A stretch of DNA of 64,000 bases from Paenibacillus ihbetae (GTDB lineage Bacteria > Bacillota > Bacilli > Paenibacillales > Paenibacillaceae): positions 1,572,501 through 1,636,500 of the forward strand of contig NZ_CP016809.1 of NCBI RefSeq assembly GCF_002741055.1. The letters run 5' to 3'. The notes under the pieces are model-generated. The model had not been told where the DNA came from. It ran no database searches and saw only the letters and a list, made by a program, of their open reading frames with translations. Position numbers and translations under genes: made by a program. This document shows positions 3,153 to 52,090 of this stretch, piece by piece. Every line of letters begins with the position of its first letter. The first letter of the stretch is position 1.

Positions 3153-3188
3153 AAAAAAAATCCTTTCATCGACATGAAAGGATTTTTT
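3153..3188 (-). terminator. Terminator after ilvE
   Basis: AAAATCCTTTCAT (3157-3169) pairs with ATGAAAGGATTTT (3174-3186), followed on the minus strand by a run of eight T. It closes the ACT-hom-thrC-thrB-pheA-ilvE operon. Confidence 0.88.
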
Positions 3189-9071: not shown

Positions 9072-9106
9072 AATAATAAAGCAGCTCCCGGCCTTTCGGG
9101 AGCTGC
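9072..9106 (-). terminator. Terminator of the SPFH/zinc-ribbon operon
   Basis: GCAGCTCCCG (9081-9090) pairs perfectly with CGGGAGCTGC (9097-9106), followed on the minus strand by TTTATTATTT. It sits just after the last gene of the five-gene operon. Confidence 0.88.
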
Positions 9107-9119
9107 TGATAGGGTCTGT

Positions 9120-9830
9120 TCAGCCCGTATGATTCATGACAGAACCGCAGTATGCACATTCGACTGGTTGATTTTTCCGGATCACTACTTCTGAGCCGCA
9201 TCCGGAGCACGTTACGACTCCCGTAGAACTAGAAGCTCGGTTGTTATTTGCCTTGTTTATTGGTTGAACCGACGCATTCTTAGGCGCATTTGCATCCAGG
9301 CGGATAAATCCGTCTTTTATAATCCCTCTCATGAAATGCTTGTGATTCAACAAATACTTTAAATCTTCTATAACTCTTGAACCCGGCTGCTTCACTTCCG
9401 CCGCAATCTCTTCAACCGAAAGGACGCCCCGTCTGATCTGATCCTCGTACTGTTTCGCCAGTTGATAAAACTGTTTATTATGATGGACCCTCAACATGCT
9501 TAGAACGGCAATAAATATCAAAAACACGATGCCCAATTGCCATGCAATCGTGATACCTTGATCAGCCCTTTGAGATGGTTCCATATCGCTGTACAGTACA
9601 AAAAATGCATATAATACCATACCCAAATACATCCCACCAAGCTGTCGACCCAGCTGACCATATTGAAAACCTCTCGCATAGTTAAGGGAGTATTGGCGAA
9701 AGAACCTCCACAAACCTAGAGGCAAAAAAACCGGAAAAAACAAAAGGTTGCCTATGACCAAAGCTTTATCAAAGGAGGTTGGTTCCGCTTCAAACTTCTG
9801 CTCCTCTATGATACGTTTACTTTCTTCCAT
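9120..9830 (-). CDS. Membrane protein with C-terminal zinc ribbon (paralogue 3 of 3)
   Basis: 236 aa, function unknown. Three predicted membrane helices (about 23-44, 63-81, 92-113), then a cytoplasmic stretch that could form a small winged-helix domain (SVEEIAAEVKQPGSRVIEDL, then LNHKHFMRG and FIRLD), then a linker and a zinc ribbon with Cys at 208, 211, 225 and 228 (CSGCG...CAYCG). It has the same architecture as the next two genes upstream. It is the last gene of the operon, with its own ribosome-binding site (AGGAGAGGAGAG). It resembles zinc-ribbon membrane proteins such as YdjG of the B. subtilis pspA operon; that link is an inference. Confidence 0.85.
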   Translation of the reverse strand: MEESKRIIEEQKFEAEPTSFDKALVIGNLLFFPVFLPLGLWRFFRQYSLNYARGFQYGQLGRQLGGMYLGMVLYAFFVLYSDMEPSQRADQGITIAWQLGIVFLIFIAVLSMLRVHHNKQFYQLAKQYEDQIRRGVLSVEEIAAEVKQPGSRVIEDLKYLLNHKHFMRGIIKDGFIRLDANAPKNASVQPINKANNNRASSSTGVVTCSGCGSEVVIRKNQPVECAYCGSVMNHTG

Positions 9831-9858
9831 GTACCATCTCTCCTCTCCTGACTTGTTC

Positions 9859-10548
9859 TCATGACACGGATTGTACCAATAGCCCGCAGTATTCGCACTC
9901 TTTTGATTCCTCTGATCTCAGAATCAATTTGGAACCACATCCCCTGCACTCCACAACGTGAGATTGTTGTGTTGACGGAGTTGTCTCTTCTTGATTCGTG
10001 ACAGAATGGCCGAAAACTTCATCGGATTTATTTGCATAATCTTGTTTGAATGTCAACACCCCCTCAACTAAGGCTCCTTCCGGGAAGTGACCTATGGACA
10101 TTAAATACTCCATATCTTGCTCTACGTTAAGCTGGGGTTGTCGCACCTGCTCCGCGATTTCGCTAATGCGGCGAATCCCGTGATCGAAAATAATTTGCTT
10201 ATATTGTTCAACAAGTTTTATGTACCACTCGCTTCGTCTCATATAGATTCCGGTTAATATAAAAAACAGCAGCAAGGAAACAATGAGGACCGCAAAAATA
10301 TAAGAGAGAATCGAATTAAAGAAAAATCCATAGACCAGATACGATATAAAGCTTGTAAATAACTGAAATGATATCATTTTGTAATGATATCCTTGTCGAT
10401 AATTAAGGTGCTTGTTTGCCCTAGCCCTCCATACCGACAAAGGAATCAGGACATAAGGAAGAAGCAAGCTGGCCGTAAACAGCGCAAGATCAACAGGCTC
10501 GGGCTTGGGCTCGTATTTATATTCTGTCGTTGTTTTGCTTTCAACCAA
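9859..10548 (-). CDS. Membrane protein with C-terminal zinc ribbon (paralogue 2 of 3)
   Basis: 229 aa, function unknown. Three membrane helices, a possible winged-helix region (RISEIAEQVRQPQLNVEQDM) and a C-terminal zinc ribbon CRGCG...CEYCG follow the plan of its two neighbours. The longest frame starts at a TTG at 10569, but AAGGTGA lies just upstream of another TTG at 10548, which I take as the start. It lies 28 bp upstream of the next paralogue and 37 bp after the previous one. Confidence 0.83.
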   Translation of the reverse strand: MVESKTTTEYKYEPKPEPVDLALFTASLLLPYVLIPLSVWRARANKHLNYRQGYHYKMISFQLFTSFISYLVYGFFFNSILSYIFAVLIVSLLLFFILTGIYMRRSEWYIKLVEQYKQIIFDHGIRRISEIAEQVRQPQLNVEQDMEYLMSIGHFPEGALVEGVLTFKQDYANKSDEVFGHSVTNQEETTPSTQQSHVVECRGCGSKLILRSEESKECEYCGLLVQSVS

Positions 10549-10585
10549 TAGTATCACCTTTCTTGTCAATTTCTTAATAAATCGT

Positions 10586-11341
10586 CTACCCGATCCTGCT
10601 GTGCCTCAGCAGCGTGCCGCAATAGTCGCACTCCTTGTGCTCTCCGCGGGCCACGGACGATTTCGCACCGCATCCGGAGCATTCTACCCAATATGGGCCG
10701 TCCTCTTCCTGCGTTTCCGTCTTCTCTGCCTTCATAATTACAGCGGCTTGGTTGAGGACCGAGTTCAGCTGCTCATCAAGGCTCTGTGCACCGCTGGTTT
10801 CGCTGAAGTCTTCCCGGCTCCGCAAGGACGGGATTTTCACGACACCGTTCTCGATCCGTCCATAGGGGAGCAAATGCAAACGAAACAAATCGTTCAAGTC
10901 CCGAATCACCTGCTCGGGCCCCTGTCTGACCGCCTGGGCGATATACGGGACATGGAACAGCCTCCTTCGCACGATGGTATCCGTGTAAACCTCGATCAGC
11001 ATTCCGAAGCTCTGGTCCCGCCTATTTCCGATCACGAACAAAATGACTACCGGAACCAAAAATACGATTCCCAAGAAGATTGTGACTTCCATAAGACTCC
11101 CGGTCTCTCCGGTGTCCGTGCTGCCGATGATCATCAAAAACTCAAGAACCATAAACGTAATTAGCAATACCCAGCCCAAGAGCCTGTAATTTCTTCCCTT
11201 GCAGCTGTTTCGCCGATGGCTGGCCATCATTCGGATGGCGGCCAGCACCATCGCGAGCGGAAAGAACAAAACGGCAGCCCCAAGGATAAGGGCATCGGTT
11301 GTAGAAAACTTCAATTTATAAGGTTTAAAAGGCGCACCCAT
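10586..11341 (-). CDS. Membrane protein with C-terminal zinc ribbon (paralogue 1 of 3)
   Basis: 251 aa, function unknown. Membrane helices occupy about 15-37, 55-75 and 80-105; a winged-helix-like region (HVPYIAQAVRQGPEQVIRDL) and a zinc ribbon (CSGCG...CDYCG) near the C-terminus complete the same plan as the two genes downstream. A strong ribosome-binding site AAGGAGAT precedes the ATG. The three copies are well diverged, which points to an old tandem duplication kept by selection. Confidence 0.84.
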   Translation of the reverse strand: MGAPFKPYKLKFSTTDALILGAAVLFFPLAMVLAAIRMMASHRRNSCKGRNYRLLGWVLLITFMVLEFLMIIGSTDTGETGSLMEVTIFLGIVFLVPVVILFVIGNRRDQSFGMLIEVYTDTIVRRRLFHVPYIAQAVRQGPEQVIRDLNDLFRLHLLPYGRIENGVVKIPSLRSREDFSETSGAQSLDEQLNSVLNQAAVIMKAEKTETQEEDGPYWVECSGCGAKSSVARGEHKECDYCGTLLRHSRIG

Positions 11342-11363
11342 ACGTTATCTCCTTGATCTGCTT

Positions 11364-12128
11364 TTATGTAGAACCCGCTTTGGCGTGCAAAAGCTGCATG
11401 TTACGGTCCTGTACCGTCCTGAGGATATCCCGGATCATCCGTGCCGTTTCCTCGGTCACCCCTTGCCGGGCTTCGGCGCTGACTTCACCGATCAATGTCA
11501 CCTGGTCCTCCAATACAGCGATTTTCTCCCGGATCAGATTTTCCACTTCATGGAGGGATGCATGCGGAATGGGATCGCTGTAGCGGAGCGTCTCCTCCAG
11601 TTCAGCCATGTCCCGGTCCAGCGAGTGGATTTCCTCGCCGGATAGCTGGTTCAGCTTACCCCGGATTGCGCCAATCCAAGCGACCGTTTCACGCTTCCTT
11701 GCCGTAAGCTCTCCCTCCTTCTCCTCATGACCGGCGACATACCTGCCGAGCAGAGAGACTAAAACCAAAACAACGGCGAATCCCAATAACGTCATCGCAT
11801 GGATTTTGAGATACGCCGGTCCCGAGAGCTTAAACAAGCTCCCCAGCAAAATGACCTCAAGGATGACGGATAAGGCATACACCCCGATAATGAAGCCCAT
11901 GGCAATCGTAAAGGGGGCACTGGAGGAAGCAGCTTTGCGTCTGCATTGATGGATGCAGGATCCGATAAAAATAAGCACAGACGCTTCAGCGAAGCCAACG
12001 GCAATGCCGGATACCCACGCGTTGATATCGGTCAGCCCGCCAATAATGCCGAATAGGAGAATCGTGGCAACCGGGACAATCAAGGCAGCCAACCAGAAAC
12101 CGTATCGAGCCGCGACTCTTGACGTCAT
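11364..12128 (-). CDS. Four-helix membrane protein with cytoplasmic coiled coil
   Basis: 254 aa, function unknown. Four hydrophobic segments (about 12-32, 38-57, 72-95, 108-128) are followed by a charged, helical C-terminal half (about 135-250) rich in E, R and L that should form a coiled coil. No zinc ribbon is present. Its ATG overlaps the stop of the upstream SPFH gene (ATGA), so the two are translationally coupled and probably work together at the membrane. Confidence 0.82.
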   Translation of the reverse strand: MTSRVAARYGFWLAALIVPVATILLFGIIGGLTDINAWVSGIAVGFAEASVLIFIGSCIHQCRRKAASSSAPFTIAMGFIIGVYALSVILEVILLGSLFKLSGPAYLKIHAMTLLGFAVVLVLVSLLGRYVAGHEEKEGELTARKRETVAWIGAIRGKLNQLSGEEIHSLDRDMAELEETLRYSDPIPHASLHEVENLIREKIAVLEDQVTLIGEVSAEARQGVTEETARMIRDILRTVQDRNMQLLHAKAGST

Positions 12129-13456
12129 GATGGATCACCGCTTTCACTTTCCATTATCCGGTGCCCGCATTCCATGCAGAACTTCTGCCCCGGCTTTACC
12201 TCATGATTGCAGTTGGTGCATTGAAGCTTATGACTTGCTCCACAGTTCGGACAGAATTTTGCACCCGGGTCCAGCAAGTGGCTGCATTCCCGGCAAGGGA
12301 TCGGCAGCTGGGCACCGCACTCCGCGCATACCTTGGCATCCGCCGGATAATCATAGCCGCAGGATGGGCAGGCTCTGTACGGGTCACCGCAGTTCAGGCA
12401 AAACTTCGCATGGCGTGGGATCACATGACCGCAATCGGTGCACAAAATATCGCGGGCCGGCTTATCCGGCTTCTGCACATGAGCAGGCTGGCCACAGCCT
12501 GAGCAAAACCGGGAATGCTCATCCATTAACGTCCCGCACTCGGTACAGGCTCTTGGCTTCAGTCCGGGTCCGTCTGCTGTCTGAACCTCGGTGTCTCTTA
12601 ACAGCCGTGTCATCGTTTCGTATACCGGACCAGCCATGCCGATCCCTATGCCCAGTCCGCTGCCGATCGCCCCAGCAGGGCTCCCGGGATTCTTCGCGGC
12701 TCCTTCCAGCGTATCGAAGGTCCGCTCCTGATGATAGGTATAGCCGATAATGTCCATTTCCGCTTTCTTCGCCAATGCTTCCTTAATTCGAAGAGCAGCG
12801 GGGTCATCTTCCGGAATATTGATGGAATCGACAAAGAAATTGAGCAGCGTAATCCCCATCTCATCGAACGATGGAGCAATCGCTTCCATAATATGCTTTG
12901 ATATTTCCGTCATATAGGCGCTGATTTCGACGACGCTGATCTTTTTGAAAATGATGTACGAGGAGATAATATCCTTAATATTGGACATAAGCACTCCGCG
13001 ATAATATTTGACCAAGGTGCTTTGATCAAAGGTTGGCAGCGTGCCGACCATTTCTCCCAAAAACTTTCTCGGATCGCTGATCTGGACCCCGAACTGTCCA
13101 AATGCCCGCACGGAGACGATAATATGATATTTGGGATCCTGCAGCTGAATCGGTGCGCTCGTTCCCCACTTCACATCCAAAGAGCGCATTTTGTTGATAA
13201 ACCAAACCTCTGCCGTAAACGGAGATTTGCCTCCGAACGGGAGATTGGTGATATTCGATAAAATCGGAATGTTTGCGGTGCTTAGCGTGTGCCTGCCTGC
13301 AGAGAAGGAATCCAAGGCTTGGCCGCCCTTATATAAAATCGCCTCCTGCGATTCGTGAACGATTAGTTGGGTCCAGGTGCCCAGCTCCTGGTTGGGATAA
13401 CGCCAAGCAAACACATCCGGCGGGCCTTCAAATTTAACAACATCAATGATAGCCAT
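12125..13456 (-). CDS. SPFH-domain protein with five C-terminal zinc ribbons (YdjI-like)
   Basis: 443 aa. The N-terminal two thirds (about 1-285) is an SPFH/virion-core-like domain (AIIDVVKFEGPPDVFAWRYP start, RSLDVKWGTSAPIQLQDPKY core, then NFFVDSINIPEDDPAALRI). A Gly-rich helix (AGAIGSGLGIGIGMAGP) leads into five tandem zinc ribbons at 304-432, each with two CxxC pairs. It resembles YdjI of the B. subtilis pspA-ydjGHI membrane-stress operon, but no pspA lies here. The longest frame begins at 13666; I chose the ATG at 13456 because AAGGAGAG lies before it and the SPFH domain starts there. It is the first gene of the five-gene operon. Confidence 0.85.
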   Translation of the reverse strand: MAIIDVVKFEGPPDVFAWRYPNQELGTWTQLIVHESQEAILYKGGQALDSFSAGRHTLSTANIPILSNITNLPFGGKSPFTAEVWFINKMRSLDVKWGTSAPIQLQDPKYHIIVSVRAFGQFGVQISDPRKFLGEMVGTLPTFDQSTLVKYYRGVLMSNIKDIISSYIIFKKISVVEISAYMTEISKHIMEAIAPSFDEMGITLLNFFVDSINIPEDDPAALRIKEALAKKAEMDIIGYTYHQERTFDTLEGAAKNPGSPAGAIGSGLGIGIGMAGPVYETMTRLLRDTEVQTADGPGLKPRACTECGTLMDEHSRFCSGCGQPAHVQKPDKPARDILCTDCGHVIPRHAKFCLNCGDPYRACPSCGYDYPADAKVCAECGAQLPIPCRECSHLLDPGAKFCPNCGASHKLQCTNCNHEVKPGQKFCMECGHRIMESESGDPS

Positions 13457-13596
13457 AGTTCTGCTCTCCTTTTGCATGGTTCGTCCGATCGGATGATCGA
13501 TAAAAATAGGTACAAATGTACTACTATTGTATACGATTTGGCCGGTAAATGGATGAAAAATTTGGGAATCGGACCATTCGTCGTCGCTTTTGCACA

Positions 13597-13637
13597 CAAA
13601 AAAACCGCCAAGCCTGCTTATACACAGACTTAGCGGT
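13597..13637 (-). terminator. Terminator after obg
   Basis: ACCGCTAAGTCTG pairs imperfectly with CAGGCTTGGCGGT, followed on the minus strand by TTTTTTTG. It separates obg from the SPFH operon. Confidence 0.85.
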
Positions 13638-51570: not shown

Positions 51571-52090
51571 ATCTTCACAGGCAGTAGGACCGTTGTCAGT
51601 TTATCAGCACTTCGCATGCGGGTGGTTCTTACGATCTCTGTGTGCCCTCGGATTTTTTTGAATTTCTGGATTCCTATCAGGAAATCCGAGGGTAAAGGAG
51701 AACGCTTGCTTCTTCTGAACAATTCCGCCTTCTCCGTTGGGGCTTTCCTGGCGGGCAAGTCCCTTTTGGGGACTTGCTTGCTGCTTTGGAGCCCATTTTT
51801 CCTCTACAAGCCCCTTTTGGGGACATCTTCACAGCCAGTAGGACCGTTGTCAGTTTATCAGCACTCCGCATGCGGATTGTCCTTACGATCTCTGTTGTCC
51901 TCGGATTTCTTTGAATTCTATGTTCCTATTGATGAAATCCGCGGACAAAGGAGAACGCTTCGCTTCTTCAGAACAATTCCGCCTGCTCCGTTGAAGCTTT
52001 CCTGGCGGGCAATTCCCTTTTGGGGACTTGCTTGCTCCTTCCGAGCCCGCTTTCCCTCTTCAAGTCCCTTTGGAGGACTTGCTTGCTCGT
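51571..52090. repeat. Imperfect 254-bp tandem repeat between lonB and ispG
   Basis: Unit A (51571-51824) and unit B (51825-about 52090) begin with the same block (ATCTTCACAG, AGTAGGACCGTTGTCAGTTT) and stay alignable throughout, with many substitutions and a few indels. Each unit contains GAAATCCG...AAAGGAGAACGCTT and ends in hairpins of the type GCAAGTCCC-TTTTG-GGGACTTGC (51755-51777, 51807-51824, 52009-52031, 52061-52082). Short frames on both strands follow the repeat and show no ribosome-binding sites. The rest of 51431-52237 shows nothing else. Confidence 0.85.

Follow-up and report, generated by a model that had tools for sequence, protein, structure and literature searches.

Genome comparison places a five-gene SPFH and zinc-ribbon operon of Paenibacillus ihbetae in a conserved, uncharacterised three-part module

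SPFH proteins are widespread membrane organisers. To our knowledge, the membrane targeting and client choice of soluble SPFH proteins are known for few of them. A 64,000-nt stretch of the Paenibacillus ihbetae genome (NZ_CP016809.1, positions 1,572,501–1,636,500; the whole stretch is called the window) contains, in its list of open reading frames (ORFs), five minus-strand ORFs at 9120–13456. They encode an SPFH protein (gene 1), a four-transmembrane (4TM) protein (gene 2) and three membrane proteins with a zinc ribbon (genes 3–5). The question is whether this set is part of the PspA envelope-stress system or a system in its own right. A sequence-only reading had described it as a terminator-closed operon related to the Bacillus subtilis pspA-ydjGHI operon, with PspA absent and the membrane partners multiplied, and had proposed a possible stress or defence role. 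Judged by gene content and order, the operon represents one instance of a module that is conserved, uncharacterised and made of three parts, namely an SPFH protein, a 4TM protein and one to four transmembrane/ribbon proteins.

A close relative of the SPFH gene (E <= 1e-60) was found in 22 of 60 whole genomes, that of the window included, and in 20 of the 37 genomes of the genus. Gene 3 was present in all 20 of these genomes and in four of the 17 without the SPFH gene; the four cases were two matches at E near 1e-5, one fragment and one broken copy. Gene 2 was present in 19 of the 20 and in six of the 17. The order SPFH, gene 2, gene 3 was kept in 27 of 34 loci from named genomes, a count that is conditional on gene 3 because the loci were found through the gene 3 profile, and obg and pheB flanked 19 of the 34. 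The neighbourhood is conserved; a lack of conservation in relatives had been named beforehand as the outcome that would refute the reading. Seven loci were not counted as modules (L074, L079, L083, L084, L085, L086 and L088). Three of them, L074, L084 and L086, are trios from gut metagenome-assembled genomes (MAGs) that were kept apart, each with an SPFH gene, a short hydrophobic gene and a relative of gene 3.

The module extends beyond the genus. In a class-wide sample, 27 of 348 genomes gave a match, and 12 stretches were examined: six had matches to the SPFH gene, gene 2 and gene 3, one (L172) to the SPFH gene and gene 3, and five to gene 3 only. A phylum-wide sample gave matches in 12 of 348 genomes; the two strongest new loci, from other families and at other sites, carried SPFH, gene 2 and gene 3 in order and without PspA. 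In other Bacilli, L165, L166 and L167 carried gene 3-like membrane/ribbon proteins without an adjoining SPFH gene or gene 2, two of them in tandem in L165.

Between one and four copies of the third component were seen, with three in the window, four in P. glucanolyticus and one in the close relative P. lactis. The multiplication of partners therefore holds for this operon and not as a general trait. Genes 4 and 5 paired with the third and fourth P. glucanolyticus copies (100/99, 89/77) in a 38-row tree, so the duplications seem to predate the split between the window and P. glucanolyticus. In P. lactis, the place of genes 4 and 5 is occupied by an array between gene 3 and pheB (L055, 6757–7371), in which six copies of the palindrome ACAAGTCCCTTTWAGGGACTTGT were counted by eye, the tandem unit being about 51 bases long. 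A looser palindrome of this type is present once in the window, at 51755–51777.

The features of the operon were located on the minus strand. Gene 1 (12125–13456) encodes a 443-aa protein of the YdjI family, Band_7_1 (PF13421, E 1.1e-47). Its ATG at 13456 is preceded by a ribosome site, AAAGGAGA, recognised by eye; the mechanical ORF extends 5' to 13666. Ten CxxC knuckles at residues 304–430 (12167–12547) give five four-cysteine ribbons, and Zn_Ribbon_1 matched in five stretches. No 19-residue segment reached a hydropathy of 1.6 (maximum 1.21), and by this measure the protein has neither a flotillin-type membrane hairpin nor a transmembrane helix. A search of solved structures returned weak ribbon-type and other matches for gene 1 (best E 0.0011), NCBIfam gave no match over its cut-off, and a protein search matched at least 6308 proteins. 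Gene 2 (11364–12128, 254 aa) starts within the end of gene 1 through an ATGA overlap. It has four hydrophobic segments and a predicted cytosolic helical bundle (structure model, mean pLDDT 89.7), whose likeness to the MLKL and plant CC-type bundles is limited to shape.

Gene 3 (10586–11341, 251 aa) has three hydrophobic segments, a predicted winged helix at residues 112–175 (10817–11008) and a C-terminal zinc ribbon (10619–10681); the mean pLDDT of its model was 85.7. Gene 4 (9859–10569) and gene 5 (9120–9830) are its paralogues, as gene 5 matched gene 4 at E 4e-27 and gene 3 at E 2e-13. For gene 4, TTG 10548, which by eye follows AAAGGTG, is the more likely start. Genes 3, 4 and 5 carry two CxxC knuckles each near the C-terminus, and the third component ends in a ribbon of the form CxxC...CxYCG. 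A protein search with gene 5 gave two matches including itself, and the gene 3 profile gave 10; such searches depend on shared short words, so these small numbers say little. Two loci (L041, 10054–11415; L043, 5390–6751) encode a 453-aa protein made of two gene 3 units in frame, in which the match of the first unit stops before the ribbon. Gene 3 relatives deposited as Cytobacillus firmus and Virgibacillus sp. LDC1 (P0128, P0129) cluster with Paenibacillus entries, and their labels may be wrong.

The winged helix had been overlooked in the sequence-only reading. Its top structural matches were PCI-type assembly domains. The five proteins of the window themselves gave no PCI profile match. Within the gene 3 family, four of 46 members matched PCI with E no higher than 0.1 (1.8e-5 for the best), PCI being one of 101 families that were matched weakly, and one distant relative, in L084, scored 22.6 bits against the Pfam PCI cut-off of 22. 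Weak matches to DNA-binding winged-helix profiles were also found at E up to 0.1, namely HTH_DeoR in seven of 46 and FeoC in four of 46. At L168, L169, L170 and L175, four of the six class-wide loci with matches to the SPFH gene, gene 2 and gene 3, a pair of short proteins makes up the third component and the match covers their ribbon end only; the winged helix is therefore not essential to the module. The ribbon is the part common to all forms of the third component seen, and this favours a ribbon-mediated docking.

Read from their layout, the five genes are an operon. Terminator-like hairpins lie between obg and the operon (13604–13637) and at the operon end (9080–9107). A hairpin scan of the region gave 6 sites against 6.0 in shuffles, so both hairpins rest on their position and not on the count. 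With this reservation for the terminator, the architecture given by the sequence-only reading was borne out: five co-oriented genes, a YdjI-related SPFH protein with five ribbons and three ribbon-tipped membrane proteins.

The relation to PspA was more complex. PspA is encoded four times in the P. ihbetae genome, which also has, elsewhere, a complete pspA-ydjG-ydjH-ydjI operon with the second Band_7_1 gene. The claim that PspA is absent is thus right for the operon and for the loci examined in relatives and wrong for the genome. PspA adjoined none of 54 window-type loci in stretches of 4–17 kb (50 with an SPFH gene); these are 20 whole-genome and 34 named-genome loci, partly from the same genomes and including a few fragments. 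In contrast, of 16 loci with other Band_7_1 genes, 12 had pspA, in each case together with ydjG and ydjH; four places below the family cut-off had been left out. In the SPFH tree, 12 ydjI-type rows split off (100/100) and the window-type and gut MAG rows were grouped (100/99), with very long branches between the groups. The two Band_7_1 proteins of the genome share 26% identity. Across the genus, presence of the operon was unrelated to a ydjI-type gene (5 of 20 versus 4 of 17, p 1.0). None of the five proteins matched TPM (YdjH, PF04536), which is present in the other operon of the genome. Because PspA is missing from the loci, the SPFH clade is separate and identity is 26%, the operon does not, on this comparison, belong to the PspA-YdjGHI system.

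At L141, L142 and L143, Band_7_1 SPFH genes of a third group were seen; the adjoining gene encodes a YdjG-like protein (about 366 aa), and the stretch has no PspA. The gene 3 profile matched these YdjG-like proteins with E from 1e-7 to 1e-6, a match to which the ribbon alone may have given rise.

Substitution rates indicate that the genes are kept. Compared with P. lactis, the window gave dN/dS values of 0.064, 0.205 and 0.149 for genes 1–3 and of 0.013–0.014 for obg, hom and thrC, and pheB had no amino-acid change; two further genome pairs agreed. On these values, genes 1–3 are under purifying selection, and the membrane partners evolve much faster than the flanking genes (genes 2 and 3 at 0.09–0.21 versus 0.00–0.04, several-fold to about fifteen-fold). 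Solo copies of gene 2 were intact in L089, L090 and L092, with the upstream box described below retained. An independent function of solo gene 2 was rejected, since its raised dN/dS of 0.47 (L089/L090) and 0.96 (the shortened pair L093/L094), one pair each, against 0.19–0.24 in other pairs, looks like stepwise decay. L091 is a decayed operon in which the SPFH gene is mostly gone, gene 2 lies in two frames and gene 3 has a stop.

A conserved box upstream of gene 1 had also been overlooked. Within 250 nt 5' of gene 1, TCGTATACAAT was exact in 18 of 28 upstream stretches and, when one change was allowed, present in 20 of 28, against 0 and 0.12 in composition shuffles; the stretches are related and the counts are not independent. 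The 28 are the window and the 34 named loci minus seven, of which three had no SPFH gene found, one had a short upstream region and three had no match to the start pattern. The box was not found in the gut MAG rows. By eye, a CC-containing element lies about 15–16 nt 5' of it, and in the window the promoter-like form CC-N15-CGTATACAAT occupies 13526–13552, 69 nt 5' of gene 1. In five genomes without the SPFH gene and gene 3, the box is retained 5' of gene 2, as CGTATACAAT in two and CGTTTACAAT in three. The box contains CGTATA and no clear AAC element was seen by eye in the window, so no sigma factor is named.

Allowing one mismatch, CC-N15-CGTATACAAT has 29 sites in the P. ihbetae genome against 12 for a reversed control. 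Three are exact. One belongs to this operon, another lies 84 nt 5' of a solitary DUF350 gene that follows a mutS2-like gene, and behind the third no ORF was found. An operon-specific regulon was considered, and none could be named from the sequence behind 12 of the 29 sites. The solitary DUF350 gene with the exact CC-N15-CGTATACAAT is at 3167–3586 of L128, and in L009 (626000–633000 of the P. ihbetae genome) a PspA gene is followed by a DUF350-like gene, identified by eye, and further small genes. Inspection by eye did not show the box ahead of pspA.

We propose, with a probability of about 0.5, that the operon encodes a PspA-independent SPFH membrane scaffold that is assembled by its own anchor and has swappable zinc-ribbon clients. 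The SPFH protein would form a ring or cage at the inner membrane surface. The gene 2 protein may bring it there, in analogy to the need of YdjI for YdjG and YdjH, and the ribbon array may dock the ribbon tails of gene 3-type proteins. Where present, the PCI-like winged helix might serve protein assembly. In this way a microdomain would arise that, without PspA, tunes the fluidity of the membrane or shields envelope enzymes, and multiplication of the third gene would diversify the clients. An envelope-stress role is possible. The three genes, which occur apart from PspA and in several families of a single phylum, would represent a minimal set of scaffold, anchor and clients.

Alternatively, the operon may be a second arm of the phage-shock/envelope-stress response, in which the SPFH platform recruits PspA encoded elsewhere. 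The four PspA genes of the genome would allow this, YdjI binds PspA in B. subtilis (PMC8581546, in the sections covered), and the covered part of PMC11237479 suggests that other abbreviated band-7 operons, with flotillin and a YqiJ/YuaF protein, may work with PspA from elsewhere. However, the PspA-free loci, the separate SPFH clade, the lack of correlation with ydjI-type genes and the box, not seen by eye ahead of pspA, make this reading unlikely. It is still less likely that genes 3–5 are membrane-tethered regulators that contact DNA or RNA polymerase through winged helix and ribbon, with their clustering or release under the control of the SPFH protein. The HTH_DeoR and FeoC matches point that way, but the domain is structurally nearest to PCI-type assembly domains and is not essential, as the four ribbon-only loci show.

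In other systems membrane proteases are enclosed by SPFH cages, and the operon could similarly act in HflKC/prohibitin-like quality control or assembly of membrane proteins, with the ribbons recruiting clients; since it contains no protease or chaperone gene, we regard this as doubtful to a similar degree. The defence role raised by the sequence-only reading fared worst. Patchy presence, changes in copy number and the fast evolution of genes 2 and 3 would suit an anti-phage or other conflict system, but PADLOC models matched the five proteins only with PDC-S64 at E 0.032, over the gene 5 ribbon, 19 of 34 loci share one housekeeping site, and whole-gene selection is purifying and not diversifying. 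Such a system is therefore very improbable.

The scaffold reading can be set against several known systems. Flotillins FloA/FloT, with their NfeD partners, act as membrane scaffolds and share the SPFH domain with gene 1, whereas gene 1 has no hydrophobic segment and no NfeD family match was found in the five proteins. The B. subtilis pspA-ydjG-ydjH-ydjI operon is similar in its PF13421 protein, which has a C-terminal ribbon and no membrane segment, and in its membrane partners, one of them bearing a zinc ribbon. The window operon differs in having 4TM and ribbon-tipped membrane proteins in place of PspA and TPM, and five ribbons in gene 1, whereas the ydjI paralogue of the P. ihbetae genome has one. 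According to the covered sections of PMC8581546, the soluble YdjI requires YdjG and YdjH to reach the membrane, YdjH being the likely anchor. The window operon may work like this YdjI arm. The ydj operon, with band-7 and ribbons, is described among PSP partners in PMC11237479 and PMC9239133, the covered parts of which contain no PspA-free trio of this kind. A literature search, which left most subscription papers outside and covered sources in part, gave no description of the three-part set and no tested function.

The predicted fold of gene 3 residues 112–175 resembles that of the PCI winged helices of the COP9 signalosome, the proteasome lid and UFL1/DDRGK1; unlike these, the gene 3 domain is short, adjoins membrane segments and is followed by a ribbon. 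A PCI-like domain, of a type typical of eukaryotic assembly platforms, would be placed on a bacterial membrane protein. Archaeal Meth_adaptin ESCRT-type loci likewise have an SPFH protein with a zinc ribbon, and archaeal ESCRT systems include membrane proteins with a PCI-like winged helix (PMC10936438, in the part covered), whereas the five proteins here matched no ESCRT-III/PspA, Vps4 or adaptin-type family. A bolder and rather improbable version follows this likeness: a PspA-free membrane-organising machine of one phylum, with an SPFH cage, the ribbon array as docking board for interchangeable membrane proteins tipped with a ribbon, PCI-type winged helices as assembly joints and the gene 2 bundle replacing PspA as the element that acts on the membrane, would be a bacterial counterpart of ESCRT-type SPFH and PCI/winged-helix parts.
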